Assembly (NCBI RefSeq): GCF_020035535.1
Contig: NZ_CP083349.1
Coordinates: forward strand, 3,348,501 to 3,412,500
DNA from: Ensifer adhaerens
Lineage (GTDB): Bacteria; Pseudomonadota; Alphaproteobacteria; Rhizobiales; Rhizobiaceae
Reading direction: 5' to 3'
Length of the DNA stretch: 64,000 bases
Made by a program: the position numbers and the translations under genes. The notes beneath the pieces were generated by a model. That model had not been told where the DNA came from, made no database searches, and saw only the letters and a program-made list of their open reading frames with translations. Shown here in pieces: positions 27,781-44,818 of the stretch. The first letter of the stretch is position 1. Each line of letters begins with the position of its first letter.

Positions 27781-28656
27781 TTAGGCGGACGAATCGTCCG
27801 CAATCTTCACAACAAGGCCGTCGGCGGCGATCGTCAAGGCGCCCGCCCAGTTTTTGCGGGTCGCCGCGATCCAGTCCGTTTCCGAAATCTCGGGATCGTC
27901 GGCAGGGATCAGATGGTGCAGCACCAGCCGGCCGACGCCCGCGGCCGTTGCGATCGCGGCCGCTTCTCCGGCAAAGCTGTGGCTCGCCAGCAGATGCTCC
28001 TTCAACCGTGCGCCATTGCCGGTGCGCGCCACCAGCCGGTCGACGCCTTCGGCAAGCATCGCCTCATGCACGAGAATGTCGGCCCCTTTGGCGAAATCGG
28101 CAAGCGGCGGGAAATAGGCGGTATCGGACGAGAACACGACAGAACCTTCCGCATGGTCGAACCGAAGCGCAAAACAATCGGTAACCGGCGGATGGTCGAC
28201 GCGCAGCGCCGAGAGCGTCAGGCCACTCTCCGACAAGATTTCGCCTTCGGAGAACTCTATGACCTCGACCAACGCGCGCAGATCCGGCCGGCCCTCATCG
28301 ACGATGCGGATGTCGATATCGAAGGCCATCGATTGCAGGAAGCCCTGCCAGTAGGCGCGGGTGCCGGCGGGGCCGAAGACGCGCACCGGCTGCGATAGCC
28401 CCGCGGTCCAAGCCGTGTGAATGAGCGGCCCGAGCTCGAGCACATGGTCCGAATGCAGATGGGTAATGACGATCAGGTCCAGCGTCTTCAGCGCGACACT
28501 GGCATTGGTCAGCCCGCGGGTGACGCCGAGAGCGCAATCGACGACAACAGTCCGGCCGCCGATTTGAAGCAGAGACGACGTCGGCCACGGGCCGCCCGGC
28601 CGGATCGCCGGACCACCCTTGCTGCCGAGCAAAACCAGGCGTGAACTCAAGACCAA
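27781..28656 (-). CDS. MBL-fold metal-dependent hydrolase (RNase Z-like)
   Basis: Metallo-beta-lactamase fold enzyme, 291 aa. The zinc motif [11 protein letters not shown] is near residue 65. A further metal-binding aspartate lies in FSSDTAYF, an HEAML histidine follows, and [13 protein letters not shown] near residue 220 and LHHLIP follow. The family is close to the RNase Z/arylsulfatase branch, but the substrate is not evident. It starts at TTG 28656, overlapping the hmgA stop by 10 bp, and lies 55 bp before fahA, so it is co-transcribed with homogentisate catabolism. It may hydrolyse a pathway by-product such as a lactone or thioester (inference). Confidence 0.8.
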
Positions 28657-30017
28657 TCGCCTTCCGGCGTCCCGTTGAACCGCTTCTTGAGATCGCTCCA
28701 GCAGTCAATGTAGTTGTCCTGCAACGTCTCCAGTTCGGCGGCGAAGCGGGTCAGCTGCTGCGGGAAGCGGGTCTCGAACATGAAGGCCATCGTATGGTCG
28801 AGCTTCACCGGTTTCAACTCGCTATTCGTTGCCTTGTCGTAACCTGATGCATCCGGCCCGTGCGCCAGCATCATGTTGTGCAGGCTCATGCCGCCAGGCA
28901 CGAAGCCTTCCTCCTTGGCATCATAGCGGCCATAGATCAGCCCCATGAATTCGCTCATGATGTTGCGGTGATACCAGGGCGGCCGGAAGGTGTGTTCCGC
29001 CACCATCCAGCGCGGCGGGAAGATCACGAAATCGATGTTCGCCGTGCCCTCCTCGCCAGAGGGTGCCGTCAGCACCGTGAAAATCGACGGATCCGGATGG
29101 TCGAAGAGAATGGCGCCGACCGGCGAATAGGTCTTGAGGTCATATTTATAGGGCGCGTAGTTCCCATGCCAGGCGACGACGTCGAGCGGCGAGTGACCGA
29201 TCTCGGTCACGTGGAAGCCGCCGCACCATTTCACATGCACGCGGCAGGGCGTTTCCTTCTCCTCGAAGGCGGCGACCGGCGTCTTGAAATCGCGCGGGTT
29301 TGCAAGGCAGTTGGCGCCAATCGGGCCGCGATCCGGCATCGTAAACTTGGCGCCGTAATTTTCGCAGATGTATCCGCGCCAGACCTTCTCCTCACCACGC
29401 CGTGTCACCTTGAACATGGTGCCGCGCGGCACGATGCAGATCTCCGAGGGCTCCACATTCATCTTGCCGAGTTCGGTGAAGACCTGGATCGCGCCCGTTT
29501 CCGGAACGATCAAGAGCTCGCCGTCCGCATTGAAGAAGTAGTCGTCCACCATGTCGGCGTTGAAGGCATACGCATGCGCCGCCATGCCGGTCTGCGTCGG
29601 CGCGTCGCCCGCCGTCGTCATCGTGCGGATGCCCTCAAGGAAATTCAGTTTCTCCGCCGGCACCGGCAGCGGGTTCCAGCGCAACTGGCCGAGCGCCAGC
29701 GAATGCTCGGCCACATGCGGCGCCGTCTTCCAGTGCGGGTAGTCGATCTTGCTGAAGCGACCGGTGTGACGGACGCTCGGGCGGATGCGGTAGAGCCAGG
29801 ACCGCTCGTTCGTGCCGCGCGGGGCAGTGAAGGGCGATCCGGAAAGCTGCTCGGCATAGAGCCCGTAAGCGCATTTCTGCGGGCTGTTCTGCCCCTGCGG
29901 CAGGGCACCCGGAAGGCTTTCGGTCTCAAAATCGTTGCCGAAGCCGGGCATGTAGTTGAGCGCCTCCTCAGCCCTCACCTGCGCCTCGGCCTGTTTTCCT
30001 GCCTTGTCCAGCATCAT
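28647..30017 (-). CDS. hmgA: Homogentisate 1,2-dioxygenase
   Basis: Non-heme Fe(II) ring-cleaving dioxygenase converting homogentisate to maleylacetoacetate (456 aa). The N-terminal [19 protein letters not shown] and [19 protein letters not shown], central IPETGA-like cupin strands, and C-terminal [20 protein letters not shown] with the iron ligands are all present. [15 protein letters not shown] is another conserved block. It is the first gene of the operon and is divergent from the MarR regulator. Start ATG 30017 is followed by a second ATG at 30014. Confidence 0.96.
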
Positions 30018-30142
30018 CGATCCTCCTCCTCATGGCGCCTCACTTCGGGTTCTCGAAGCGACCTGCGAAAGGTCCGGCGCAATCCCAAATACCGCAGCGA
30101 CGACCTTTTCCCAGGTGGACGAAATTGCCGCGTTCGGCATAT

Positions 30143-30177
30143 TAGTTGCAATCGTAACTATCGATTTTGTAACTATC
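30143..30177. promoter_or_regulatory. Putative MarR operator between hmgA and its regulator
   Basis: An imperfect 18-bp palindrome with TAGTT/AACTA ends lies at 30143-30160. GTAACTATC occurs at 30154-30162 and again at 30169-30177, a 15-bp direct repeat. The site lies 13-47 bp before the MarR gene and 126 bp or more before hmgA. Confidence 0.5.
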
Positions 30178-30189
30178 AAGGACGCCAAA

Positions 30190-30660
30190 ATGGCCGCCGA
30201 TGGCTTCGAGCTCAATGCCTTCCTGCCCTATCGCCTGAACCGCGCGGCGGAATTTGTCGCATTGCGCTTTGCCGCCCAATACAAGGCGCGCTACCAGCTC
30301 ACCCGCCCGGAATGGCGCACGCTCGCGGCCCTCGGCAGCACTGGTCGTCCGATGACGGCAACCGAAGTCGCGGGCCACTCGGCCATGCACAAGACCAAGG
30401 TCAGCCGCGCCGTCGCCGCGCTCGAAAAGCGCCGCTGGCTCACTCGCCGTGAAGACGAGGGCGACCGCCGCATAGAGCATCTTGAACTGACGAAGATGGG
30501 CATTCGGGCCTATGCCGAGCTAACCGAGCTTGCCGCCCGCTATCAGGCCGAGCTGGATATGCTGATCGGCCCAGCCGGCATGCGGGCGCTCGCCACTGGT
30601 CTGGAAGCGGTGGAAACGGCTATAGGTAAGGCTGAGAGCAACTCTGTCGCCGACGATTGA
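30190..30660 (+). CDS. MarR-family transcriptional regulator (HmgR-like)
   Basis: Winged-helix regulator of 156 aa from MAADGFELNAFLPYRLNR. The helix-turn-helix is at about residues 50-95 (TATEVAGHSAMHKTKVSRAV) and the wing is RREDEGDRRIEHLELT with the conserved DxRR. Divergence from hmgA and a palindrome between them suggest it controls homogentisate catabolism, with an aromatic ligand as inducer (inference). The longer open frame back to 29956 runs into the hmgA start region. It converges with the Lrp-type gene, 4 bp between stops. Confidence 0.87.
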   Translation: MAADGFELNAFLPYRLNRAAEFVALRFAAQYKARYQLTRPEWRTLAALGSTGRPMTATEVAGHSAMHKTKVSRAVAALEKRRWLTRREDEGDRRIEHLELTKMGIRAYAELTELAARYQAELDMLIGPAGMRALATGLEAVETAIGKAESNSVADD

Positions 30661-30664
30661 CGCT

Positions 30665-31144
30665 TCAGCCCTTCATCCGCTCCGGGATCGGCACGCCCTC
30701 GAAACTCTTGAGGGTTTCGAGCACAATGGACGTCTTCACATGCTGCACGCTGTCGTGCGGCAGAAGCACGTCGTTGACGAAGCGCGAGAGCCCCGCGAGG
30801 TCAGGGGTCACCACGCGCAGGTGGTAGTCCATCTCGCCCGTCAGCGCATAGGCCTCCAGCACCTCCGGCAGACTGGAGACAAGCTTGCCGAACCGCTTGG
30901 CATTGTCGCGATTGTGGGTGGCGAGCGTCACTGAGATCACCACCATCAGATCGAGGCCGAGTTTCTGCCTGTCGATCTGCGCCTGATAGCCGGTGATGTA
31001 GCCTTCCGCTTCGAGCCGGGTGCGCCGCCGCGAGCATTGTGACGGCGAGAGCGCGATGCGTTCGGACAGTTCGTTGTTGGTCAGATGCCCGTCGCGCTGC
31101 AATTCGCTGAGGATCTTGAGATCGAACCCGTCAAGCTGCTCCAT
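30665..31144 (-). CDS. Lrp/AsnC-family transcriptional regulator
   Basis: Feast/famine-type regulator (159 aa). The N-terminal helix-turn-helix (DLKILSELQRDGHLTNNELS, SPSQCSRRRTRLEAEG) is followed by an AsnC ligand-binding domain (about 70-150) with GEMDYHLRVVTPDL. It is divergent from hppD with 131 bp between them that hold phased GTGCA motifs. It probably senses tyrosine, phenylalanine or a keto acid and regulates hppD and itself (inference). Confidence 0.88.
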   Translation of the reverse strand: MEQLDGFDLKILSELQRDGHLTNNELSERIALSPSQCSRRRTRLEAEGYITGYQAQIDRQKLGLDLMVVISVTLATHNRDNAKRFGKLVSSLPEVLEAYALTGEMDYHLRVVTPDLAGLSRFVNDVLLPHDSVQHVKTSIVLETLKSFEGVPIPERMKG

Positions 31145-31146
31145 TC

Positions 31147-31222
31147 GTGCATCCTAATACGCAATATTGCATGTTTCGTGCACCATTCTGTCTAAACCGT
31201 GCAAGAATACAAGCATTGTGCA
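31147..31222. promoter_or_regulatory. Phased GTGCA motifs, probable Lrp/AsnC binding region
   Basis: GTGCA occurs four times on the plus strand, at 31147, 31178, 31199 and 31218. The spacings of 31, 21 and 19 bp are close to whole helical turns. A perfect palindrome GCAATATTGC lies at 31161-31170. The array fills the gap between the Lrp-type gene and hppD. Confidence 0.55.
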
Positions 31223-31275
31223 TGAGAATTGCGTCATACTCCGGCTAAGTTTGGAAGAATAAGAGGAGACTTCCG

Positions 31276-32388
31276 ATGGGCCCCTTCCCGCATGATGCCC
31301 CGCCGGCAACGATTACCGCTGATAACCCCGCCGGCACCGACGGATTCGAATTCGTCGAATTCGCCCATCCGGAACCGGAAAAGCTTGCCGAGCTCTTTAC
31401 CCGCATGGGCTACAGCCCGGTCGCCAGGCACAAGACCAAGAACATCACGGTCTGGCGCCAGGGCGACATCAACTACATCCTGAATGCCGAGCCGGGCTCG
31501 CATGCCATGCGCTTCGTCGACGAGCACGGCCCCTGTGCCCCGTCGATGGCCTGGCGCGTCGTCGATGCCAAGCACGCCTTCGAGCATGCAGTCTCGAAGG
31601 GCGCGATCCCCTACGAAGGCAAGGACAAGTGTCTCGATGTCCCGGCGATCGTCGGCATCGGCGGTTCGCTGCTCTATTTCGTCGAGACTTACGGTGCCAA
31701 GGGCTCGGCCTATGAGGCCGAATTCGAGTGGACCGGGGAGCGCAATCCGAAGCCCGAGGGCGTCGGTTTCTATTATCTCGACCACCTGACCCATAACGTC
31801 TATCGCGGCAACATGGACAAGTGGTGGGCCTTCTACCGCGAACTCTTCAACTTCACGCAGATCCACTTCTTCGACATCGACGGTCGCATCACCGGCCTCG
31901 TCAGCCGGGCGATCACCTCGCCCTGCGGCAAGATCCGTATCCCCTTGAACGAATCCAAGGACGACACGAGCCAGATCGAGGAATATCTGCGCAAGTACAA
32001 GGGCGAAGGCATCCAGCACATCGCCGTCGGCACCGAAGGCATCTACGATGCCACCGACAAGCTGTCGGACAATGGTCTGAAGTTCATGCCAGGCCCGCCG
32101 GAAACCTATTACAACATGTCGCACGACCGCGTTCACGGCCATGACGAGCCGATCGAGCGGATGAAGAAGCACGGCATCCTCATCGACGGCGAAGGCGTGG
32201 TGAACGGCGGCATGACGAAGATCCTCTTGCAGATCTTCTCGAAGACCGTGATCGGCCCAATTTTCTTCGAATTCATCCAGCGCAAGGGTGACGAAGGCTT
32301 TGGCGAGGGTAACTTCCGCGCCCTGTTCGAATCGATCGAAGCCGATCAGATTCGCCGCGGCGAACTGGGGCCGCAGGCGGCAGAGTAA
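31276..32388 (+). CDS. hppD: 4-hydroxyphenylpyruvate dioxygenase
   Basis: Fe(II)-dependent enzyme that turns 4-hydroxyphenylpyruvate into homogentisate, feeding hmgA (370 aa). Two VOC-fold halves are visible. The iron ligands are expected at His170 (YLDHLTHNV), His248 (IQHIAV) and Glu332 (FFEFIQRKG). The C-terminal GFGEGNFRALFESIE is characteristic. The start has AAGAGGAGAC upstream. It is transcribed away from the Lrp-type regulator. A 9-bp hairpin at 32417-32438 may end the transcript. Confidence 0.96.
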   Translation: MGPFPHDAPPATITADNPAGTDGFEFVEFAHPEPEKLAELFTRMGYSPVARHKTKNITVWRQGDINYILNAEPGSHAMRFVDEHGPCAPSMAWRVVDAKHAFEHAVSKGAIPYEGKDKCLDVPAIVGIGGSLLYFVETYGAKGSAYEAEFEWTGERNPKPEGVGFYYLDHLTHNVYRGNMDKWWAFYRELFNFTQIHFFDIDGRITGLVSRAITSPCGKIRIPLNESKDDTSQIEEYLRKYKGEGIQHIAVGTEGIYDATDKLSDNGLKFMPGPPETYYNMSHDRVHGHDEPIERMKKHGILIDGEGVVNGGMTKILLQIFSKTVIGPIFFEFIQRKGDEGFGEGNFRALFESIEADQIRRGELGPQAAE

Positions 32389-32644: not shown

Positions 32645-33604
32645 TCAGTTCGTGACCTCGTTGACGACGCGCCAGTTCGGTCGACCGAGGTCATGCGGCC
32701 AATTGATCACGTCACGATCGTTGAAGTAGACGACTTCCGCCAGATTGGGGAACTGCGGATCCGGTTGCGTCGCTGCGTTCATCCATGGCTGCATGTAGGT
32801 TTCACTGCCTTGCCATCCGAGCTCGGCCACCCAGATCGGCTTCTTGTACTTGGCCACCAGATCGTAGCCGGGCTTCAGCGCCTCGGCGAAGGTCTTCGGC
32901 GCTCCGTATTCGATCTTGTCGAAAGCTTCGAACCCGAAGACCGACAACCCGACGAGATCGACATATTTGTCACCCGGATAATAGGCTTCGAGGTTCGGCA
33001 GTCCTTTCGGCGACCACATGATCTGCGCCTTCGGGGCCTTCTTGCGCACGATGTCCATCGCGTGCCTGTAGGCCTTGATCCAGTCCTGGGGCTCCCAGCC
33101 AGCCCAGGAGAAGCGGCCGGAGGTGTCTTCCATTTCCTGGCCCCAGCGCACGATGACCGGGCTCTTCAGTTCGGCGATCGCCTTGGCGATCGCTTCCATG
33201 TTGGGGTCATACTCGCCCCTGAGCATACGGTCGCGAAGCTGCGTTGGTGTCAGTTTCCAGTCGAGCGACCAGGACCAGGGCTCGATGGTGATCAGCAGAT
33301 TGCGATTGCGCTGAAGGGCGTATTCGTCAGCGGTCTGCAAGGATGCGAGATCGACGTCCTCCCAGGGCAGGAACAGGGCTTCGGTCGTCACATCGCTTTG
33401 GGCGCCGAAATCCCCATGCGGATCGTAGGCGCCGAATTTCGTTCCGCCAGGGTGCATGACGGGACGTTTGTCGATCATCGTCTCGGTCTGCCCGGCATTG
33501 CCCGCAGGATTGGCTTGCTCCTGCGCCAATGCTGATACCAAGCTGCCGAAGTCCAGCTGTAGAGCTAGGGCAGTGCATAGGGCGAACGCCAATTTGCGTT
33601 TCAT
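32645..33604 (-). CDS. Secreted GH26-type glycoside hydrolase (mannanase/xylanase-like)
   Basis: Predicted exported glycanase of 319 aa. A Sec signal peptide (1-27) ends with SALA. The GH26-like barrel has a likely acid/base Glu157 in VRWGQEMED and a likely nucleophile Glu261 in KPIWVAELGW. WSPKGLPNLEAYYPGDKYVD and GLSVFGFE are typical of GH26/endoglucanase H proteins. GH26 includes beta-mannanases, lichenases and beta-1,3-xylanases, so linkage is open. It is last in the uxs-uxe-GT2-DUF995 operon, suggesting trimming or release of the polymer. The start has GGAGGATGAA upstream. Confidence 0.8.
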   Translation of the reverse strand: MKRKLAFALCTALALQLDFGSLVSALAQEQANPAGNAGQTETMIDKRPVMHPGGTKFGAYDPHGDFGAQSDVTTEALFLPWEDVDLASLQTADEYALQRNRNLLITIEPWSWSLDWKLTPTQLRDRMLRGEYDPNMEAIAKAIAELKSPVIVRWGQEMEDTSGRFSWAGWEPQDWIKAYRHAMDIVRKKAPKAQIMWSPKGLPNLEAYYPGDKYVDLVGLSVFGFEAFDKIEYGAPKTFAEALKPGYDLVAKYKKPIWVAELGWQGSETYMQPWMNAATQPDPQFPNLAEVVYFNDRDVINWPHDLGRPNWRVVNEVTN

Positions 33605-33622
33605 TTCATCCTCCTGCGGCGT

Positions 33623-34138
33623 CTATTTCTTGGCCAGGAACTGTTCCTTCAAATTCAACGCCTTTGCTGTGATGTCGTCCTGGGCGACGAGGCTGTAGTA
33701 GGCATCATTGGGCTTGGGCTTTGCATGCCTGAAGACATACCACTCGCCGTTTGGCACCTTTCGCTGATAGATCGTGTCGCCGATCCTGGCGTGGCCGAAG
33801 CAGGTCCGTGCGTCGCCGGCATTGGCCGCGGTCGTCCAGATGGCCTGCATGCACATCATGCCGAGGTCGCTGACGTACCAGTTGCCTTCGGCAAAGGACC
33901 GGTTGCCGTTGCCCTTGTCCACAAAGGCCACGAGCTTGCGGTCATGCGCGGTGAAGCGTGCCCCGCCGGTCGACCATTGCCAGGTCTTGTTGCGATAGAG
34001 GGAGTAGACCTCATAAGCGCTGAGCGGCGTCGGCTTGACTTCCATCTTCGCCTTGACCGGCTGGGCGCCCAGATAGACCGCAGCGGCTGCAAGCGGCAGC
34101 AACAGCGGAACAACCATGACTTTTATGGACCCTTTCAT
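33623..34138 (-). CDS. Secreted DUF995-family protein
   Basis: Predicted exported protein of 171 aa, start ATG 34138 with AGGAGAAAGG upstream (a GTG at 34153 would place the ribosome site inside the gene). A signal peptide or membrane anchor (about 4-30, ending VKA) precedes a domain with YEVYSLYRNKTWQWSTGGAR, GNWYVSDLGMMCMQAIW, HARIGDTIYQR and WYVFRHAK, which I recognise as DUF995-like. Two cysteines (in MMCMQ and RTCFGH) could form a disulfide. Function unknown. It lies between the glycosyltransferase (48 bp) and the glycanase (18 bp), so a periplasmic role in polysaccharide export is plausible. Confidence 0.7.
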   Translation of the reverse strand: MKGSIKVMVVPLLLPLAAAAVYLGAQPVKAKMEVKPTPLSAYEVYSLYRNKTWQWSTGGARFTAHDRKLVAFVDKGNGNRSFAEGNWYVSDLGMMCMQAIWTTAANAGDARTCFGHARIGDTIYQRKVPNGEWYVFRHAKPKPNDAYYSLVAQDDITAKALNLKEQFLAKK

Positions 34139-34186
34139 TGCCTTTCTCCTCACATTGGAGATTACAAACTCGACGGCGCGCCGCCG

Positions 34187-36211
34187 TCATGACGGCACGT
34201 AGTATCGGCTGACCTTCTTGGTGGTCCTCGTTTCCCCGACCCGCGTTTCCCCGACGCTCATCCGGCTTCCAATCGTTGCACTGATGCTCCTTCTCTCGAC
34301 ACTGTTTGGGGTGGTTCGTGATACGACAGGTTCGATCCGCGCCCCGCTCTCGGGCGGCTGCGAAAAGCCTTTCCACCGCAGATGGAAACGAACGATCCTG
34401 AGGTTCGTGCCATGCCCGGCGCCGGCAACCGTGTACTTCGCCTCGGTGAAGGTCACGAAACCCAGGCCATGCGACAGGGCCTCCGTTGCCTCGGCGCCGT
34501 GGCGCACGGCCGATTGGGCCGAGAGCACCGAGACCAGCACCAGAGAACCTGCCGTTATCGCCGTCATCGTCGAACGCGGCATGAGCGGCAGCCCGTTCTC
34601 GCGGGCGTGTCGAACATGGATCACCACCACGAGCCCGGCATAGATTAGGGCGTTGATCTCGGCAAAGACGTAGAAACCCCGCGCCGTTCCGGCATCGGAA
34701 ACGAGCCAGACCGCGAGCGCCGACATCAGGGAAAGCACGAGATAGGGCGTCAGCACCCGAAGCGGCAGAGGAGCCGCCGCGCCGCCGCCCTTCGGCGTGA
34801 TGCGAAAATCGACGAACGTGCGGGTCAGATGGTCGCGCACCGCTGCCAGGCAGCCGAGCAGCGACCACGGCCAGCGCGCGAACAGGAACAGGACTGTCTC
34901 CCAGCTCAGCACCCGCGCATCATGCGGCCGGAACGTACCGGTCGAACGCCAGAAATAGGCGAGCACGACCAGAACCAGCGACAGGGGCGCGAAATGCAGC
35001 AGAAAATCGGGATAATCGACCTCGACGAAGGCCCGCCCCATCAACAGCGCCGCGATCGGCATCAGGAACATCAACGCCATGAAGAACGAAAACAGCGGGT
35101 ACCAGAACTGCGAAAACAGGAACTGGAACTGCAGCCGCGCCGGCAACTTCGGCACATAGGCCGGCGAGTACTTCAGCAGGATCGCGACGAGGCTGCGCGA
35201 CCATTGGAACTCCTGAACCACAAGATCGGCAAAGTTCGCCGGTCCGTCGCCGTGGGCTATGGCGTTGTGGGCATGGACGCCACGCCAACCATGAGCGTTC
35301 ATCATCAGCGTCGTCGAATGATCTTCGGCGAGTTCCGGCCCCAATCCGCCGATCTGCTTCAAGGCCTTTGTGCGCACGGCGTAGTGCGACCCGATGCAGA
35401 GCGGCGCCCAGCCGTTGTTGTATCCGACCTGCAGGGAGCCGTGCAGGCTCGCCTCCGCATAAAGCCGCCCACGCGCCGCCCAGCTGGTTGGGGCGTTTGC
35501 GTCGCATATGCTCGGCGCCGAGACATAGCCGACCGACGGGTCGTTGAAAGGGCGCAGCACCTCGACGAGGTAGCTGGCTTCGGGCACGTGATCGGCGTCG
35601 AACTGCGCCACGAACTCGTAGCGGTCATAGCCATAGTGATCGTAGAAATAGGCAAGGTTTCCCTCCTTGCAGCGCGTGCGGCGCGGCCAGGCAGCGCGAT
35701 GATAGTCAGCGATACCCTTTCGCGTGGAGATGAAGACCCCGTGGGCCGCACACCAGGAAGCCGTCTCCGGCGACGGATCCTCATCCGCCAACCAGACATC
35801 GAAGTCACAGCCGGTCTGGTCCAGCATCGCCTGCAACGTCTTGCGCAACACGGCAAATGGCTCGGAAGGCGCCTTGGTGACAACCATCGCGATCCGTCCG
35901 CGTGGCACCGGGCCCGTACTTGCTGTGGCAACCTTCGCGCCCGAAAAGATCGCGATGAAATAGACCGGCAGCAGGGTGATCCACCCGACAACGACGGTAA
36001 TCAGCCCATAGGACGGCCAGTCCATGACATGGGCCGGATCGAGCCACCACCACCAGAAGTACGCGAAGGCGGCGAACCACGCCGTGACGCCCAGCATGTT
36101 CAGGATCTGCAAACGCCCGGAGAACAGCGCCGTCAGACGCGGCCGGACATGCCGCGCACCCGCGAGATCGACATAGTGCCGAAATCCATGGATTGTGGCC
36201 GTCCAGCTCAT
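34187..36211 (-). CDS. Cellulose-synthase-like processive glycosyltransferase (GT2)
   Basis: Inner-membrane family 2 glycosyltransferase, 674 aa. Two N-terminal helices (about 38-57 and 68-92) precede a cytosolic GT-A domain with the processive-enzyme motifs DED (143-145), DAD (205-207), and ED (296-297, AEDHSTT). The fourth motif, normally QxxRW, reads QEFQW at 333-337. At least five C-terminal helices form the likely translocation channel. The tail repeats VGET (VGETRVGETR). It overlaps the epimerase gene by 4 nt. The nucleotide-sugar genes upstream suggest UDP-xylose, UDP-arabinose, UDP-glucose or UDP-galactose as donor. The polymer is unknown. No PilZ domain is visible. Confidence 0.85.
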   Translation of the reverse strand: MSWTATIHGFRHYVDLAGARHVRPRLTALFSGRLQILNMLGVTAWFAAFAYFWWWWLDPAHVMDWPSYGLITVVVGWITLLPVYFIAIFSGAKVATASTGPVPRGRIAMVVTKAPSEPFAVLRKTLQAMLDQTGCDFDVWLADEDPSPETASWCAAHGVFISTRKGIADYHRAAWPRRTRCKEGNLAYFYDHYGYDRYEFVAQFDADHVPEASYLVEVLRPFNDPSVGYVSAPSICDANAPTSWAARGRLYAEASLHGSLQVGYNNGWAPLCIGSHYAVRTKALKQIGGLGPELAEDHSTTLMMNAHGWRGVHAHNAIAHGDGPANFADLVVQEFQWSRSLVAILLKYSPAYVPKLPARLQFQFLFSQFWYPLFSFFMALMFLMPIAALLMGRAFVEVDYPDFLLHFAPLSLVLVVLAYFWRSTGTFRPHDARVLSWETVLFLFARWPWSLLGCLAAVRDHLTRTFVDFRITPKGGGAAAPLPLRVLTPYLVLSLMSALAVWLVSDAGTARGFYVFAEINALIYAGLVVVIHVRHARENGLPLMPRSTMTAITAGSLVLVSVLSAQSAVRHGAEATEALSHGLGFVTFTEAKYTVAGAGHGTNLRIVRFHLRWKGFSQPPESGARIEPVVSRTTPNSVERRSISATIGSRMSVGETRVGETRTTKKVSRYYVPS

Positions 36212-37191
36212 CGCCGCACCTCCAGCCCGAAACCCGGCGCCGCCGTGCGGATGATGGTTTCGATATCCGACAACGTAGGTCGGAAGCCCAGCCGTTGCCG
36301 CGCCCGACTGCTATCGGCATAGAGCACCGGCGGATCACCGGGACGACGCGGCAACAGCCGCACCGGAACCCGTCGCCCGGTGACCCGATCGATGGCTTCC
36401 AGAACCTGCCGGATCGAGGTCCCGTGCCCGGAGCCGAGATTGGCGCGCAGCACCTCGCCGCCATCACGCAGATAGTCGACGGCGGCGACATGGGCGTCGG
36501 CGAGATCGGTCACGTGAATGTAGTCGCGGATGCAGGTTCCATCCGGCGTCGCATAGTCGTCACCGAAGATATCGAGTCTTTCGATCTCGCCGGCCGCCGC
36601 CATCAGGGCACGCGGAATGAGATGCGTTTCCGGATCATGCCGCTCCCTGAGTTGTCCTTCCGGATCGGCGCCCGCGGCGTTGAAGTAGCGCAACGCGACG
36701 GAGCGGAAATCATAGGCACGCGCATAGTCGCCGAGCATCAGCTCGATCATCAGCTTCGTGCGCCCATAGGGGTTGATCGGAAACTGATCCGTATCCTCGG
36801 TGATCGGAAGCCGCTGCGGCACGCCATAGGTGGCGCAGGAGCTGGAAAATACGATGCGCCTCAGCCCGGTCGCGCGGCAGGCTTCGAGCAGCGTGATGCT
36901 GCCTGCGACGTTGTTGCGGTAGTACTTTCCCGGGTCTTCGACGGATTCCCCGACATAGGCGGAAGCCGCAAAGTGGATCACACATTCGGGACGGTGCGTT
37001 CGGATCGCCGTTGCCAGCCGCTCCGTATCCTCAAGGTCCCCTTCGACGAGGGGACCCCAGCGCACGCTGTCCCGATGTCCCGTCGACAGGTTGTCATAGA
37101 CGACGGGAGCGAAGCCCTTCTGGGCAAGGCGCTTGCAGGTGTGGCTTCCTATAAAGCCGGCACCGCCGGTGACGAGCACGACGCGGGACAT
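36208..37191 (-). CDS. UDP-sugar 4-epimerase (UDP-xylose or UDP-glucose 4-epimerase)
   Basis: Short-chain dehydrogenase/epimerase (327 aa from MSRVVLVTGGAGFIGSH). The NAD motif is GGAGFIG, the catalytic segment is FSSSCATYG with YGRTK carrying the Tyr and Lys, and FNAAGADPEGQLRERHDPET and the C-terminal PGDPPVLYADSSRARQRLG are GalE signatures. Being directly after a UDP-xylose synthase-like gene, it may make UDP-arabinose from UDP-xylose; such an enzyme pair (Uxs/Uxe) has been described from Sinorhizobium meliloti, as I recall. It could equally supply UDP-galactose. The upstream in-frame extension to 37275 lies in the previous gene. Confidence 0.85.
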   Translation of the reverse strand: MSRVVLVTGGAGFIGSHTCKRLAQKGFAPVVYDNLSTGHRDSVRWGPLVEGDLEDTERLATAIRTHRPECVIHFAASAYVGESVEDPGKYYRNNVAGSITLLEACRATGLRRIVFSSSCATYGVPQRLPITEDTDQFPINPYGRTKLMIELMLGDYARAYDFRSVALRYFNAAGADPEGQLRERHDPETHLIPRALMAAAGEIERLDIFGDDYATPDGTCIRDYIHVTDLADAHVAAVDYLRDGGEVLRANLGSGHGTSIRQVLEAIDRVTGRRVPVRLLPRRPGDPPVLYADSSRARQRLGFRPTLSDIETIIRTAAPGFGLEVRR

Positions 37192-37192
37192 C

Positions 37193-38233
37193 TCATACGG
37201 CCTCTCCCGCCGTTGCGCGTTCGGCCGCGCTGAGGCGCTCCTCGAAATAAGCGATGGTGCGTTCGAGCCCGTCACGCAGCACCACCTTCGGCTCCCAGGC
37301 GAGCTCGGTCCGCGCGTGCGAGATATCGGGACGGCGCTGACGAGGGTCGTCGACGGCCGCCGCCTGGTGGACGATGCGCGAGCGCGAACCGGTCAGAGAC
37401 CGTACCACTTCCGCCAGATCGAGAACGGTGAACTCCCCGGGATTGCCGAGGTTGATCGGCCCGATGCAGTCATCGGCCGAGACCGAAAGCCGGAGAAAGC
37501 CGTCGATCAGGTCGTTGACATAGCAGAAGGACCGGGTCTGCTGCCCGTCGCCATAGATCGTCAGATCCCGACCGAGAAGGGCCTGGACGACGAAGTTGGA
37601 GATCACCCGGCCATCGTCCGGGCGCATGCGCGGACCGTAGGTATTGAAGATGCGCGCAACCTTGATCCTGACCCGATAGGAACGGTGATAATCGAAGAAC
37701 AGGGTTTCGGCCGACCGTTTTCCCTCGTCGTAGCAGGCACGCGGACCTATCGGATTGACGTTGCCGAAATAGACCTCGCGCTGCGGGCTGAGGAGCGGAT
37801 CGCCGTAGACTTCCGAAGTCGAGGACTGGATGACGGTGGCGCCGGTGGCGCGCGCATTTTCGAGTGCATGCAGCGCGCCAAGGACGTTCGTCATGAGAGT
37901 GCCGACCGGATCGGCCTGATAGTCGGGCGGTGATGCGGGGGAAGCAAAGTTGAAGATGACGTCGGCGTCGATCAGGTAGGGTTTGCGAACGTCATGGTCG
38001 ACGATGTGGAAATGCGGATTCTGCACCAAATGAGAGAGATTTTCATGCCGTCCCGTTGAAAAATTGTCGAGACAAATAACAGTATGACCTAGAGAAAGAA
38101 GTCTTTCGCAAATATGAGAACCGAGAAAACCGCCTCCGCCTGTTACTAGTATTCTTCTTGGTATTCCTGCAATCTTCTTTAGAAACTCCCGCTGCCCGAC
38201 GACAGACAACGGCCCCGGAGAGACCTTTCGCAT
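37193..38233 (-). CDS. UDP-glucuronate decarboxylase / UDP-xylose synthase
   Basis: NAD-dependent SDR enzyme of 346 aa that converts UDP-glucuronate to UDP-xylose. The dinucleotide motif [10 protein letters not shown] is at residues 31-40. Uxs-specific blocks are [51 protein letters not shown] (catalytic Tyr and Lys) and [19 protein letters not shown]. The start ATG 38233 has GGAGG 5 nt upstream. It is the first gene of the polysaccharide operon, transcribed from an AT-rich leader. It ends 1 nt before the epimerase gene. Confidence 0.88.
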
Positions 38234-38245
38234 GCGCACCTCCAA

Positions 38246-38786
38246 TTATTGTACACACCATTCCTCATGGTGATTGGAGACGGGCTGCCTATCGAAAATA
38301 TAATAAGGAATTTGTTCTTTATTACAAATTCACGCACAACCCGACATAAAAAGAAATCTACAATTCGTCCACATATCTACTTATCTTCACTTTCAATATT
38401 AGCTAACTATCAAATAACTAATCGAACGTCAACTAAAACAACAAGGAATGATACAATATAATCTGAAATAGGAATGAATAATTATGGAAGATAACTACGG
38501 GTAGCTACATTTATGCTAAAGTCCATAATCATTTAATTCTCTATTAACCATAATATAATTACAAATGATTATAAACTCATGATGAGACTTACCGCTGCCA
38601 GGGGAGAGTTAGACGGTCGCGCGATGCCGGTCGAGGATTTTCGCCATGGCGACCACACGTCGCCACAAACCAGGTCATGGGATACCCGGCGCGTCCTCAT
38701 GCGCAGACGAACGCCAACGTCTGCGCTCTCGACCGCGTCGAGGCACAGAAAAGGAAAAAGGGCTCACTTGGCAGATGCCGCCGAAC
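38246..38786 (-). promoter_or_regulatory. AT-rich leader/promoter region of the polysaccharide operon
   Basis: This 541-bp gap holds no credible gene. Bases ~38255-38580 are strongly AT-rich, with many TATAAT-like stretches (for example ATATAATAAGG near 38299), unlike the GC-rich flanks. Bases 38590-38786 return to normal composition and contain a hairpin at 38701-38726. The AT-rich block is a likely target for a silencer such as MucR (inference). Confidence 0.5.
38701..38726 (-). terminator. Hairpin downstream of the LuxR-type gene
   Basis: GCGCAGACG (38701-38709) pairs perfectly with CGTCTGCGC (38718-38726) over an 8-nt loop, 60 bp past the regulator stop. No T-run follows, so it is only a weak terminator candidate. 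Confidence 0.4.
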
Positions 38787-39587
38787 TTAGTTCTTCCAGC
38801 GCGACGAAAGTGTGTCGCTACCCCGTTCGGCCGCTGCATCATTGGTGAAGTAACGCGATGCCGCCTCCGTCCGGTTGCGGACGTTCATCTTCTTGTAAAT
38901 GTTGCGCACGTGAACCTTGACGGTGTTTTCCGACAAGCCAAGACGATCGGCGATGATCTTGTTTTGCGTTCCCTTGCAGATCAGGTCGAGAATCTGAACC
39001 TCGCGGGTCGTCAATCCATCAGGCCCGGCATCGCGCTTGCGCCGGCCCGAGCCTGCGGCCGCGCCCGGCCCGGACAGCTCGCCCCGACGGCCATAGAGGC
39101 TGTTTGCGCCGAAGGGCTCTGGCGAAAGCCGCCGCAGCAAGGCGGCCGGGAAGTGCTCGCCTCCCTTCATCAGCAAATCGATGGCTGCGAGGCAGACGTC
39201 CAGGTTCAGGTTCAACGGCAGAACCCCGTGGATCAAGCGCTCTTCGACGAAGCCGGCAATTGACGGATCGAGTTCATCGGCATTCTCCACCACCAGACCG
39301 ATCGAGGTCTTGGGGTGAAACTCATGAATGGTTCGCAGGATTGCTGGAAAGGACTTGGCCGGCATCCGATAGAGCATGATCAACGTCACATCGACGAGAC
39401 TGCCGTCCAACAGATTGTCCGGATCGGAAAAGCAGACGATGTCGTGCCCTTGAAACCGTGAACCGACGGCCTGCATCAGGCACTCGGCAAACAGATCGAT
39501 CTTGGCGAGCATGACGATCTTTTTCTTTTGCGACAAAGCCTTGTTGTTTTCTTCAAAATCACCAACGCTGGAGCTTCCAGGATACAT
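38787..39587 (-). CDS. LuxR/CsgD-type transcription factor with degenerate receiver domain
   Basis: Regulator of 266 aa. The C-terminal GerE/LuxR helix-turn-helix spans 191-247 (GLTTREVQILDLICKGTQNK, LSENTVKVHVRNIYKKMNV). The N-terminal half is receiver-like, but the acidic pair of beta-1 is replaced by Ala-Lys (VMLAKIDLF). The phospho-acceptor Asp position before RMP is Leu72, and the beta-5 Lys is missing, so it is unlikely to be phosphorylated. This architecture recalls CsgD/VpsT biofilm regulators. It lies upstream of, and on the same strand as, the polysaccharide operon. The start has AGGAGG upstream. Confidence 0.82.
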   Translation of the reverse strand: MYPGSSSVGDFEENNKALSQKKKIVMLAKIDLFAECLMQAVGSRFQGHDIVCFSDPDNLLDGSLVDVTLIMLYRMPAKSFPAILRTIHEFHPKTSIGLVVENADELDPSIAGFVEERLIHGVLPLNLNLDVCLAAIDLLMKGGEHFPAALLRRLSPEPFGANSLYGRRGELSGPGAAAGSGRRKRDAGPDGLTTREVQILDLICKGTQNKIIADRLGLSENTVKVHVRNIYKKMNVRNRTEAASRYFTNDAAAERGSDTLSSRWKN

Positions 39588-40580: not shown

Positions 40581-40877
40581 TCAGTCTTCGCTCTCACTCC
40601 AGACGAGTGCCTTCCGTTCTTCCCGAAAAGCGAAACGGACGATGTGACTTTCGACGATGTCCTTGCCACGCCGCAACGCCTCGGCATCCGGAGCCTCAAC
40701 GACGAAGCACCGTCGGTCTCCATACGCGACCATCCGCGCCGGTGCTCCGCCCGGCATGGCCGCCACGGCGTCCGTCTCCGTGTACTCGACCGCTACCTTG
40801 TGCGCGAAATGTTTCGACATCCGCTGGAGGTATCGGGACGCCCGCTCCGTGGTGAAGCCGCTGGGCGCTTTCGGCAT
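40581..40877 (-). CDS. DUF2218-family protein
   Basis: Small cytosolic protein of 98 aa starting at MPKAPSGFTTERASRYLQRM (a longer frame to 40949 has no support). The RYLQRMSKHFAHK segment and the C-terminal region HIVRFAFREE are DUF2218 signatures. DUF2218 genes are often next to siderophore-uptake or siderophore-reductase genes. Here it follows the iron-siderophore binding-protein gene by 107 bp on the same strand. The molecular function is unknown; a role in iron release is inference. Confidence 0.75.
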   Translation of the reverse strand: MPKAPSGFTTERASRYLQRMSKHFAHKVAVEYTETDAVAAMPGGAPARMVAYGDRRCFVVEAPDAEALRRGKDIVESHIVRFAFREERKALVWSESED

Positions 40878-40984
40878 GATCTGCTCCTGTCCTGTCTCTC
40901 CAAAAATGAAACGGCCGCGAACGATATTTTCCCGGCCGTTCCGATCCACGCGTACCAGGCGAGCACTATCGCCCGAAACCGTGC

Positions 40985-41911
40985 TTACTTTTCAAGCGCC
41001 TGGGTGAGCTGGTCGACGATGTCCTGCTGCGACTTCAGGCCCGACGCCGTCAGATAGAGCTTGGCGGAGTCGAGATAGACCACATGGCCGTCCTTCCAGG
41101 CCTTGGTCTGGCGAACCAGTTCGTTGTCGAGCAGCGCCGCTGCCGGCTGCGCCTGCTGGCCGATCGCCGCATCGCGGTCAACGACGAAGATCCAGTCGGG
41201 GTTGGTCTCGAGGATGTACTCGTAGGAAACCGCCTGACCATGGGTGGCCACCTGCAGCTCCGGATCGGCCGGCTTGATGCCGAAGACATCATGCAGCACG
41301 CCGAAACGCGATCCCTTGCCATAGGCACTGATCTTGCCACCAGTCGTAAGCAGGATCAGTCCGGTGCCCTTCTCTGCCGCGATGCCGCGGAGCTTTTCGA
41401 TCGAGGCGTCGAGCTTGTCGACGCCGGCCTTGATTTCCGCTTCCTTGCCGAAGATCTGCCCAAGGATCTCGGCATTCTTCTTGACGCTGCCGATGAGATC
41501 CTTGTCGTCAGAGGTCAGATCGATCGTCGGCGCGATCTTGGCGACTTCGGCATATTTTGCCTGCGAACGGCCCCCGACGATCGCTAGGTCCGCCTCAGCA
41601 GCGTTGATGGCTTCGTAGTCGGGCTCAAAAAGCGTGCCGATCTTCGGATAGCTATCCGCCTTGTATTTTTCGAGCGACGGCGGGATTGCCGAGCCAGGAA
41701 CGCCGGCAACGGGAATGCCGAGCATATCCAGCGTCTCCAGCATGCCGAAGTCATAAACCAGCACCGTCTTCGGGCTTTTCTCCACGACGGTGACGCCGCT
41801 GCTGTGCTCGATCTTCAGCGTCTCGGCCAGGGCGGTCGACCCGCCGGCAATCGCCAGTGTTGCCGCGACGGCGAGGCTGCGCAGACCATTAGAAAACGGA
41901 GATATATTCAT
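40985..41911 (-). CDS. Iron-siderophore ABC transporter substrate-binding protein (FatB/CeuE-like)
   Basis: Periplasmic binding protein of about 308 aa. ATG 41911 is preferred because GAGGA lies 8 nt upstream; ATG 41926 is possible. A signal peptide ends at TALA-ET. The helical-backbone fold is typical of class III siderophore binders: KTVLVYDFGMLETLDMLGI, PDYEAINAAEADLAIVGGRS and YEYILETNPDWIFVVDRD. It resembles FatB/CeuE/YclQ proteins that bind catechol-type siderophores, though the ligand is uncertain. It is divergent from two permease genes and the ATPase, with a RirA-like box between. No lipobox cysteine, as expected in a Gram-negative. Confidence 0.87.
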   Translation of the reverse strand: MNISPFSNGLRSLAVAATLAIAGGSTALAETLKIEHSSGVTVVEKSPKTVLVYDFGMLETLDMLGIPVAGVPGSAIPPSLEKYKADSYPKIGTLFEPDYEAINAAEADLAIVGGRSQAKYAEVAKIAPTIDLTSDDKDLIGSVKKNAEILGQIFGKEAEIKAGVDKLDASIEKLRGIAAEKGTGLILLTTGGKISAYGKGSRFGVLHDVFGIKPADPELQVATHGQAVSYEYILETNPDWIFVVDRDAAIGQQAQPAAALLDNELVRQTKAWKDGHVVYLDSAKLYLTASGLKSQQDIVDQLTQALEK

Positions 41912-42005
41912 GACTATTTTCCTCATCTTTTATCGGCCGTCGTAGCGCGATTTTCCGATGAGAGCAATGCACAGGTTCCGCGTGCCGAAGATGTCGCAGA
42001 AAACT

Positions 42006-42020
42006 TGACGAAGCTAATCA
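42006..42020. promoter_or_regulatory. RirA-type iron-responsive operator (TGA-N9-TCA)
   Basis: TGACGAAGCTAATCA fits the IRO box consensus TGA-N9-TCA used by RirA in rhizobia. It overlaps a TTGACG hexamer and lies between the divergent binding-protein (95 bp away) and permease (137 bp away) genes. Iron repression is inferred. Confidence 0.6.
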
Positions 42021-42157
42021 TATATAAGAGTAAGACGGGCCGTTCGCGAAGTGCCACGACGCGGTGGCAAGGTTGAGCCCTTCGGGGGAGACGAGCGCAA
42101 ACGGGCAAGGGGCATGCACACGGTGGTGAAGACGAACGACAGGCAGAGCGGACCCGA

Positions 42158-43105
42158 ATGATGAAAGCGGTCCTGATCGCCATCCCCGTAATCCTCCTGC
42201 TTGCCGTCGCCAGCATCTTCACGGGCGTCGGCAGTCTCGCCGCAGCAGACGAGGGACGCGGCTGGTTCCTGGTAATCGAAAGCCGCCTGCCGCGCACGCT
42301 CGCGCTGATGCTTGCCGGCGCTGGCCTCGCGGTTTCCGGCACGATCATGCAGATGCTGGCGCGAAACCGTTTCGTCGAGCCGTCGACGGCGGGCACCGCC
42401 GAGTCCGCCGCGCTCGGCATGCTGCTTGCCATGCTCATCGCCCCCAACTTGCCGGTCGCCGGCAAGATGGTTTTCGCGGCGCTGACGGCACTTGCCGGGA
42501 CCGCCCTGTTCCTGCAGATCCTGCGCCGCATTCCCCTGCGTTCCGCGCTGATGGTGCCGCTCATCGGTCTCATGCTCGGTGGCGTCGTCAACGCCATTAC
42601 CACCTTCATCGCCTATCGCTACGACCTGATGCAGTCGATGGGCGCCTGGATGTCGGGTGACTTCTCGGTGGTGCTGCGTGGTCGCTACGAGTTGTTGTGG
42701 ATCGGTTTCGCGCTCACCCTCGTCGCCTATGCGACCGCCGCACGCTTCACCGTCATCGGCATGGGCGAAACGATCGCCCGCAATGTCGGCCTCAACTACG
42801 ACAAGGTCGTAACGCTCGGGCTCGCCATCGTCTCCATGGTCACGGCAACGGTCGTCGCCACCGTCGGCATGATCCCGTTCCTCGGCCTCGTGGTCCCCAA
42901 CATCGTCAGCCTCATCATGGGTGACAATCTCAGGCGCACGCTGCCTGTCGTCGCCATCTCCGGCGCCGGCCTGGTGCTCGCCTGCGACATCGTCGGGCGG
43001 CTCGTGATCGCGCCCTACGAAATCCCCGTGGGAACGGTCATGGGCGTCATCGGCAGCCTGATCTTTCTCCATCTCCTGCTTTCGAGGCGATCCCATGCAG
43101 GCTGA
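42158..43105 (+). CDS. Iron-siderophore ABC transporter permease 1 (FatD/CeuB-like)
   Basis: FecCD-family permease (315 aa) with about nine membrane helices. Signature stretches are SRLPRTLALMLAGAGLAVSG, GLNYDKVVTLGLAIVSMVTA and IPFLGLVVPNIVSLIMGDNL, the last being the conserved ATPase-contact loop region. Many family members are ~330 aa, so length is normal. It overlaps the second permease gene by 11 bp. Transport is from periplasm to cytosol with the divergent binding protein. A TonB-dependent outer receptor is not encoded nearby. Confidence 0.9.
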   Translation: MMKAVLIAIPVILLLAVASIFTGVGSLAAADEGRGWFLVIESRLPRTLALMLAGAGLAVSGTIMQMLARNRFVEPSTAGTAESAALGMLLAMLIAPNLPVAGKMVFAALTALAGTALFLQILRRIPLRSALMVPLIGLMLGGVVNAITTFIAYRYDLMQSMGAWMSGDFSVVLRGRYELLWIGFALTLVAYATAARFTVIGMGETIARNVGLNYDKVVTLGLAIVSMVTATVVATVGMIPFLGLVVPNIVSLIMGDNLRRTLPVVAISGAGLVLACDIVGRLVIAPYEIPVGTVMGVIGSLIFLHLLLSRRSHAG

Positions 43106-44063
43106 TGCCAGAAGGCTATCTCCGTCCACCGTCCTGATTGCGTCTGCCGTGCTTGCCCTCGTTTCGATGGTCGCTTTCATGACCATCGGTGCCAAGGGGA
43201 ACTGGTCCTTCCTGATCTCCTTCCGCGGCACGAAACTGCTCGGCATGGTGCTGGTCGCCTACGCGATCGCGGTCTCGACGGTGCTGTTCCAGACGATCTC
43301 GGGCAACCGCATCCTGACACCATCGATCATCGGCTTCGATGCCATGTACATCCTGCTGCAGACGATCATGGTGTTTTTCCTGGGCGCTGCGGGCGCCAGC
43401 ACCGTCGATCCGCGGCTGCAGTTCCTCGTCGACACGGCCGTCATGGTCGGCCTCTCGCTTCTGTTGTTTCGGGCGCTCTTTTCCGGCGCAAGCCGCAGCC
43501 TGCATCTTCTGATGCTGGTCGGCGTCATCCTGGGCGGCCTGTTCCGCAGTCTTTCGTCTTTCCTGCAGCGCATCCTCGATCCCAATGAGTTCGTGGTGCT
43601 GCAGGACAGGCTGTTTGCGAGCTTCAACAGCATCGATGCCAATCTGCTCGGCATTGCCGCCGCGGCAACCCTCGCCGTGACCTTCGTTCTGTGGCGGCTT
43701 TCGCCGACCTTCGACGTGCTCGCCCTCGGGCGCGAAGCATCCATCGGCCTCGGCGTCGACCATCAGCGCGTCGTCACTCTTCTGCTGGTGCTGATAGCTG
43801 TTCTGGTGTCGGTCTCCACCGCGCTGGTCGGACCGGTGACCTTCTTCGGCCTGCTGGTCGCAAGCCTCGCCTGGCAGCTGACGCCGACCGCCAGCCACCG
43901 CTTCGTCCTGCCGGTCGCCATCTGCATCGCGATTGCCACGCTCGTCGGTGGTCAGGTCATCCTCGAGCGGCTGTTTTCCTTCAACACGGCGCTCAGCATC
44001 GTCATCGAATTCTTCGGTGGCCTTGTCTTCATCTTCCTGCTTGTCCGAGGCTCCGCCCGATGA
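43095..44063 (+). CDS. Iron-siderophore ABC transporter permease 2 (FatC/CeuC-like)
   Basis: Second FecCD-type permease subunit (322 aa), with VSTVLFQTISGNRILTPSII, LGREASIGLGVDHQRVVTLL and GPVTFFGLLVASLAWQLTPT as family motifs. The two permeases probably form a heterodimer. A third of the way in, DPRLQFLVDTAVMVGLSLLL is a membrane segment. The stop overlaps the ATPase start (ATGA). Confidence 0.9.
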   Translation: MQADARRLSPSTVLIASAVLALVSMVAFMTIGAKGNWSFLISFRGTKLLGMVLVAYAIAVSTVLFQTISGNRILTPSIIGFDAMYILLQTIMVFFLGAAGASTVDPRLQFLVDTAVMVGLSLLLFRALFSGASRSLHLLMLVGVILGGLFRSLSSFLQRILDPNEFVVLQDRLFASFNSIDANLLGIAAAATLAVTFVLWRLSPTFDVLALGREASIGLGVDHQRVVTLLLVLIAVLVSVSTALVGPVTFFGLLVASLAWQLTPTASHRFVLPVAICIAIATLVGGQVILERLFSFNTALSIVIEFFGGLVFIFLLVRGSAR

Positions 44064-44818
44064 TCGAAATCCAAGAGGTGACGAAATCCTACGGCGGCAA
44101 CGCGGTCGTCGACCGGGTGTCGCTGACCCTGCCGACCGGCGGCCTGACGTCGATCATCGGCCCGAACGGCGCCGGCAAGTCGACACTGCTATCAATCGTC
44201 AGCCGGCTGATGCCGATGGATACGGGCAAGGTGCTGATCGACGGTCTCGACGTCAGCCGCACAGCCGGCGACGTGCTGGCCCGGCGGCTCTCGATCATGC
44301 GCCAGGACAACCACATCACCGCCCGCCTCAGCGTACGCGATCTCGTCGCCTTCGGCCGCTATCCCTATTCCAAGGGGCGGCTGACCGCTGCCGATGCCGA
44401 ACATATCGAGCGCTCGATCGCCTATCTCGGGCTCGAGCCCTGCCGGAATCGCTTTCTCGACGAACTCTCCGGCGGCCAGCGCCAGCGCGCCTTCATCGCC
44501 ATGGTGCTCTGCCAGGACACCGACTACATGCTGTTCGACGAGCCGCTGAACAATCTCGACATCAAGCATGCGGTCGAGACGATGAAGCTGTTGCGGCGCC
44601 TCGCCGACGACTTCGACAAGACCGTGGTCGTCGTGCTGCACGATATCAACTTCGCCTCGGCCTATTCCGACCGCATCGTCGCAATGCAGTCCGGCCGCCT
44701 CGCCTTCGAGGGACCGCCGCAAGACATGATCGTGCCGGCCCGCCTGCGGGAAATCTTCGACGTCGACTGCCGCGTTCACGCCGTCGGCGAAACGCGCCTC
44801 GTGAACTATTTCGATTGA
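44060..44818 (+). CDS. Iron-siderophore ABC transporter ATPase (FatE/CeuD-like)
   Basis: FepC-type ATPase of 252 aa, starting at MIEIQEVTKSYGG. Walker A is GPNGAGKST, the signature is LSGGQRQRAFIAMVL, Walker B is YMLFDEPLNNLD and the switch histidine is in VVLHDINFA. It powers the importer formed by the two upstream permeases. The in-frame extension to 43691 is inside the permease gene. A strong hairpin 52 bp downstream separates it from the convergent RND gene. Confidence 0.93.
   Translation: MIEIQEVTKSYGGNAVVDRVSLTLPTGGLTSIIGPNGAGKSTLLSIVSRLMPMDTGKVLIDGLDVSRTAGDVLARRLSIMRQDNHITARLSVRDLVAFGRYPYSKGRLTAADAEHIERSIAYLGLEPCRNRFLDELSGGQRQRAFIAMVLCQDTDYMLFDEPLNNLDIKHAVETMKLLRRLADDFDKTVVVVLHDINFASAYSDRIVAMQSGRLAFEGPPQDMIVPARLREIFDVDCRVHAVGETRLVNYFD

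Follow-up and report, generated by a model that had tools for sequence, protein, structure and literature searches.

What does a run of genes for pentose nucleotide-sugars and a cellulose-synthase-like glycosyltransferase make in Ensifer adhaerens, and is such a system new? The window, by which we mean the whole stretch of 64,000 nucleotides analysed here, comes from a genome of 8.1 Mb in 3 contigs. It carries six open reading frames of interest, all on the minus strand, where the earlier note had placed them (Table 1). Five of these form a compact run: 1 bp separates the uxs stop from the likely uxe ATG (37191), the uxe and GT2 reading frames overlap by 4 bp, and gaps of 48 bp and 18 bp lie between GT2 and the DUF995 gene (ATG 34138) and between the DUF995 and GH26 genes, respectively. 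This bears out the earlier description of a same-strand set with overlaps or gaps of no more than 48 bp. The LuxR-type gene, which had been described together with the operon, lies about 540 bp upstream of uxs, and is therefore a neighbour and not a tight member. For uxs, the ATG at 38233, directly 3' of GGAGG, is a likelier start than the TTG at 38245. Both nucleotide-sugar genes match Pfam Epimerase, and Uxe also matches TIGR01179 (galE) above the model cut-off. The Uxs patterns [ST]SE[VI]YGDP and YDE[GA]KR, which we take to be active-site motifs, were both present in 79 of 81 sequences (the window and 80 loci described below).

Table 1. Features of the locus, in window positions.
Feature	Positions	Strand	Remarks
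LuxR/NarL-type regulator, 266 aa	38787..39587	-	degenerate receiver-like domain and GerE helix-turn-helix
Putative uxs mRNA leader, two hairpins	38237..38345	-	lead, not established
Uxs-like UDP-glucuronate decarboxylase	37193..38245	-	likely ATG start 38233
Uxe/GalE-like UDP-sugar 4-epimerase	36208..37191	-	likely ATG 37191; ORF extends to 37275
ApsS-like processive GT2, 674 aa	34187..36211	-	QEFQW replaces QxxRW
DUF995 protein, ApsH1/ApsH2-like	33623..34153	-	likely ATG start 34138
GH26-type glycanase, ApsE-like, likely secreted	32645..33604	-	Pfam GH26; 48.9% to ApsE

By sequence comparison, the five genes are the Ensifer adhaerens-clade version of the aps operon known from Sinorhizobium meliloti, and correspond gene for gene to uxs1-uxe-apsS-apsH1-apsE. 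Passages of PMC7902896 describe an S. meliloti operon in the order uxs1-uxe-apsS-apsH1-apsE-apsH2 that makes an arabinose-containing polysaccharide (APS), and cite Schaper et al. 2017 and 2019 as the primary aps papers. Pairwise identities to the counterparts in S. meliloti RCAM1750 were 62.8% for Uxs, 64.0% for Uxe, 62.1% for GT2 and 48.9% for the GH26 protein (to ApsE), while the DUF995 protein was about equally similar to ApsH1 (35.4%) and ApsH2 (37.5%). The RCAM1750 record carries product names, and the aps names were put on its genes by matching order (divergent AraC regulator, SDR protein, GalE, glycosyltransferase, DUF995, 'beta-mannosidase', DUF995); its aps proteins are 91-99% identical to pSymB proteins of strain 1021. 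A tblastn search of plasmids with the window GT2 also led to copies on S. meliloti pSymB, of about 62% identity. The two operons thus share five genes that are collinear on one strand, at 35-64% identity and with best S. meliloti matches to Uxs, Uxe, ApsS, DUF995 and GH26, as expected of an aps-type operon. The idea that the system was undescribed must therefore be given up, an orthologous operon having been published in S. meliloti (passages of PMC7902896). What survives of that interpretation is that pentose nucleotide-sugar genes, a processive GT2 and a GH26 enzyme are kept together in numerous genera; the biochemistry, with the operon's own UDP-pentose supply serving a cellulose-synthase-like polymerase, is probably right, since the operon matches the published one.

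The window operon nevertheless differs from that of S. meliloti. The latter has apsH2 after the GH26 gene, which was absent from the window, and a divergent AraC-type CuxR where the window has a same-strand LuxR-type regulator; it lies on pSymB, whereas the window belongs to contig C1, of more than 4.1 Mb, and its ApsS has a shorter C-terminus (621 aa against 674 aa in all). Four features are new within our limited searches: a subtype that lacks apsH2 and is linked to a LuxR gene, QEFQW as a motif of the whole GT2 family, the fusion of GT2 with an ApsE-like domain, and the uxs leader described below. We rejected the idea that the genome holds a paralogous aps operon besides this one: its next-best GT2 match is 27%, and the Uxs paralog (55%) found on contig C3 sits in a cluster of other glycosyltransferases. 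That region (183000-196000, L134), with its Uxs-like gene, two epimerase-like genes, four glycosyltransferases and a methyltransferase, is perhaps a surface-glycan locus using UDP-xylose. Elsewhere, S. meliloti SM11 has a second aps operon, complete with its six genes, on the accessory plasmid pSmeSM11b (L098), which is typed as conjugative; transposase genes flank this copy, and only a fragment there matches CuxR.

How widely is this gene set kept? The GTDB collection gave 155 pattern matches, 129 of which encode a GT2 relative, and neighbours were counted within about 7 kb of GT2, on either strand, in the best 80 of these 129. Uxs was present in 80/80 (79 on the same strand), Uxe in 77/80, a separate ApsE-like GH26 gene in 75/80 (74 on the same strand) and DUF995 in 64/80. 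With four further loci in which the ApsE-like part is fused to GT2, the gene set that the earlier note had proposed to look for in other genomes does recur. A Ugd-like (UDP-glucose-dehydrogenase-like) gene, found in 37/80 loci (36 on the same strand), would complete a route from UDP-Glc through UDP-GlcA and UDP-Xyl to UDP-Ara; all three such proteins that were compared with family models exceeded the cut-off of the one for nucleotide-sugar dehydrogenases, and their best matches, below cut-off, were to UDP-glucose 6-dehydrogenase models. The five genes stand in identical order in the window and in 15/15 other genus genomes searched, so the arrangement is not due to chance. These genomes and the 80 loci are not independent samples, since at least 10 of the 15 overlap with named loci. 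At the family level the spread is patchy, with GT2 at E 1e-120 or better in 17 of 151 sampled genomes, two of them from the genus. The closest named GT2 relatives are those of Ensifer sp. Root278 (90%) and E. sesbaniae (87%), which place the window in the Ensifer adhaerens group. In Ensifer sp. LC163 (L029, 9001-10864) and in G013 (L118) the GT2 match is split into two overlapping frames, which could reflect either a broken gene or a sequence error. L029 was excluded from the tree, and rows L096 and L099 from the folding alignments; A3 comprises the window and 42 of the 80 loci or fewer.

The GT2 protein matches Pfam Glyco_trans_2_3 (2.8e-13) and, weakly, Cellulose_synt (1.3e-6), and its predicted structure is a cellulose-synthase fold. 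With BcsA (cellulose) and BgsA (mixed-linkage glucan) it shares the GT2 fold, membrane helices and the DxD motif. It differs from them in having QEFQW, aligned to QRGRW of BcsA, where cellulose synthases have QxxRW, in having AED for TED, in giving no Pfam match at E 0.001 to the PilZ domain found at the C-terminus of BcsA, and in adjoining UDP-pentose genes. QEFQW was present in 81/81 GT2 sequences (the window and the 80 loci), as was AED, against QRSRW and QRERW, with TED, in the cellulose-synthase-like and BgsA-like proteins of the same genome. A plain beta-glucan product, either cellulose or a mixed-linkage glucan, with Uxs and Uxe serving other glycans, would agree with the predicted fold and with the names used by sources, more than 12 of the 120 relatives listed, out of 3210, being called 'cellulose synthase' (some others are called 'N-acetylglucosaminyltransferase'). 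We consider it very improbable, however, given the invariant motif change, the presence of Uxs at every one of the 80 loci, the missing PilZ match and the membership of the S. meliloti ortholog in an operon published, in passages of PMC7902896, as making APS. Sources often name this family 'cellulose synthase', yet in many Proteobacteria the genes around it point to a polymer of pentose. Donor selection in processive GT2 enzymes becomes testable through a change at a catalytic site that all 81 sequences examined share.

Taken as a whole, the locus is in our opinion very likely an E. adhaerens-clade aps operon with a Uxs/Uxe/ApsS/ApsE pathway, transcription set by the LuxR-type protein, and possibly control by the leader. 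To the orthology, gene order, co-conservation, predicted synthase fold, motif change and regulator difference observed here, we add a donor for the window's ApsS, roles for the GH26 and DUF995 proteins and LuxR control that we infer. Uxs would convert UDP-glucuronate to UDP-xylose, and Uxe would convert UDP-xylose to UDP-L-arabinopyranose, the pyranose form being suggested by the lack of a mutase gene in the operon. The membrane protein ApsS would then polymerise the pentose and thread the chain through its own channel, the secreted ApsE would trim or release the chain in the periplasm, and the DUF995 protein would be a periplasmic accessory. The LuxR/VpsT-like regulator upstream would set transcription in place of CuxR, and the leader hairpin might add translational control of uxs. 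At the sequence level, the low DUF995 identity (35-37%), the missing apsH2 and a fusion domain only 35-38% like ApsE count against this whole. R. favelukesii, which carries aps genes, made no APS under laboratory conditions according to passages of PMC7902896.

Instead of an arabinan, the polymer could be a xylan, or a chain that mixes xylose with arabinose (or arabinose with galactose), since Uxe does no more than bring the two UDP-pentoses to equilibrium and has UDP-galactose among its products. Passages of PMC9938287 describe the Sinorhizobium enzyme as bifunctional, interconverting UDP-Xyl/UDP-Ara and UDP-Glc/UDP-Gal, so hexose could enter the polymer, and the name published in PMC7902896, in the passages concerned, is just 'arabinose-containing'. 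Against such a chain, the presence of Uxe in 77 of the 80 loci suggests a need for the product of epimerisation. The abstract of the 2019 S. meliloti study (Schaper et al.) also reportedly calls APS 'solely or mainly' arabinose. We regard a chain of this kind as somewhat unlikely.

Which regulator serves the window operon? The LuxR-type protein matches the GerE/LuxR HTH in Pfam (1.5e-21); its receiver-like N-terminal domain had no Pfam match at E 0.001. The best Foldseek match was VpsT (E 7.6e-11, 20% identity, TM 0.42/0.51), and the protein shares with VpsT and CsgD, regulators of the biofilm matrix, a receiver-like domain and a LuxR HTH, a fold that many other NarL-type regulators have too. 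It differs from these two in that the usual receiver Asp seems, by eye, to be absent. At the site of W[FLM][TS]R, presumably the c-di-GMP-binding motif of VpsT, the window protein reads HFPA and W occurs in 0/24 aligned rows, the site being placed only by aligned ranges. The LuxR gene lies upstream of aps, on the same strand, in the window, in 15/15 other genus genomes and in 28/80 relatives; five of the latter belong to Roseobacteraceae, where the aligned part reaches only 34-40% identity. Among the 80 kept loci, LuxR occurs near GT2 in 29 (28 without L046), CuxR in 30 and neither in 22, some of the last cut by contig ends; the two labels coincide in L046 only, whose LuxR match lies downstream at 26%. 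CuxR is the c-di-GMP-binding AraC activator of S. meliloti (passages of PMC7902896), through which c-di-GMP raises APS (passages of PMC7902896, PMC9495663 and PMC8546604). It had no tblastn match in the window, and its best-scoring match in the window's own genome was of 24% identity (53 bits), so we rejected adjacent CuxR control of this operon. The exchange leaves one output operon beside two unrelated regulators.

The LuxR-type protein might instead be a non-controlling neighbour, with MucR or another factor regulating the operon. This would fit the gap of about 540 bp before uxs, the orphan copies found elsewhere in S. meliloti and the repression of uxe by MucR that passages of PMC9938287 report for Sinorhizobium. 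The constant upstream position in the genus, its recurrence in 28 relatives that include Roseobacteraceae, and the near exclusion of LuxR and CuxR from each other's loci argue otherwise, and we find such a neighbour unlikely; LuxR-set transcription is the reading we keep. The orphan copies (68%), on S. meliloti pHRC017 and on pSymA of ml46 (L135, L136, 9001-9768), adjoin tyrosinase, multicopper oxidase and CorA genes, with no aps genes, so there is no fixed tie between regulator and operon. A literature search, limited and with most subscription papers outside it, found no LuxR-type regulator tied to aps; the two LuxR passages of PMC7902896 concern ExpR.

The uxs leader can be drawn as an outer hairpin and a second hairpin in which CTCCAAT pairs with ATTGGAG of the uxs Shine-Dalgarno region. 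Over 131 nt its fold has an MFE of -40.1, against a shuffled mean of -29.5 (z -3.12). Across 16 sequences of the genus, 15 of them distinct, standard pairs fill 99.0% of pair cells, against 34-59% when slid. Most base changes in these sequences are one-sided, and covariation was not above that of shuffles (344/500 reach the observed value), which leaves room for an operator palindrome in DNA. No Rfam match was found for the leader, which has a single copy in the genome when up to 3 mismatches are allowed. Among 84 upstream stretches scanned, the strict hairpin pattern was present in the window and 8/80 loci, and a looser one in 12/80, namely 11 of the E. adhaerens type and L056, where the sequence differs; the full leader pattern was present in 14/15 genus loci, the exception, L122, being aligned by position. 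A hairpin covering the uxs ribosome site is, on this modelling, a lead and not established. More tentatively still, ApsS might represent a separate processive GT2 class of L-arabinopyranan synthases marked by QEFQW/AED, fused in some Burkholderiaceae and Neisseriaceae to an ApsE-like glycanase, with control passed between a c-di-GMP-binding AraC protein and a VpsT/CsgD-like pseudo-receiver and a ribosome-site-blocking leader added in the E. adhaerens clade; as a joint claim we hold this to be possible but doubtful.

The Pfam match of the GH26 protein to Glyco_hydro_26 (3.4e-7) is the weakest domain match of the locus, yet above the cut-off, and a hydrophobic stretch is seen by eye at its N-terminus. 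It contains RWGQEM and VAELG, and of 83 sequences scanned, 80 have the corresponding RW.[HQ]E and 79 the corresponding [VI].E[LFY][GS]. We take these to be the two catalytic Glu sites, which, with the profile match, make the protein a predicted GH26 glycanase. In the four fusions, from Neisseriaceae (L087) and Burkholderia/Caballeronia (L088, L093, L095), an ApsE-like stretch (35-38% identity) forms the C-terminal part of an ORF of 872-918 aa with GT2. This domain had no Pfam GH26 match at E 0.001, and its assignment thus rests on similarity to ApsE and on motif patterns, RW.[QH]EM and VAELG being read in L087 and L088. In L068, a fifth locus without a separate GH26 gene, the sequence ends about 300 bases after GT2. 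The DUF995 protein (Pfam, 1.9e-43) also has an N-terminal hydrophobic stretch by eye; two DUF995 genes occur in 0/28 LuxR-type loci, against 30/80 of all loci.

On one side of the locus, window positions 28647-32388 hold tyrosine-breakdown genes (homogentisate dioxygenase, a MarR-type and an Lrp/AsnC-type regulator, and hydroxyphenylpyruvate dioxygenase). On the other, positions 40581-44818 hold an iron-uptake-like set of a DUF2218 gene, a periplasmic binding protein, a FecCD-type permease and an ABC ATPase.
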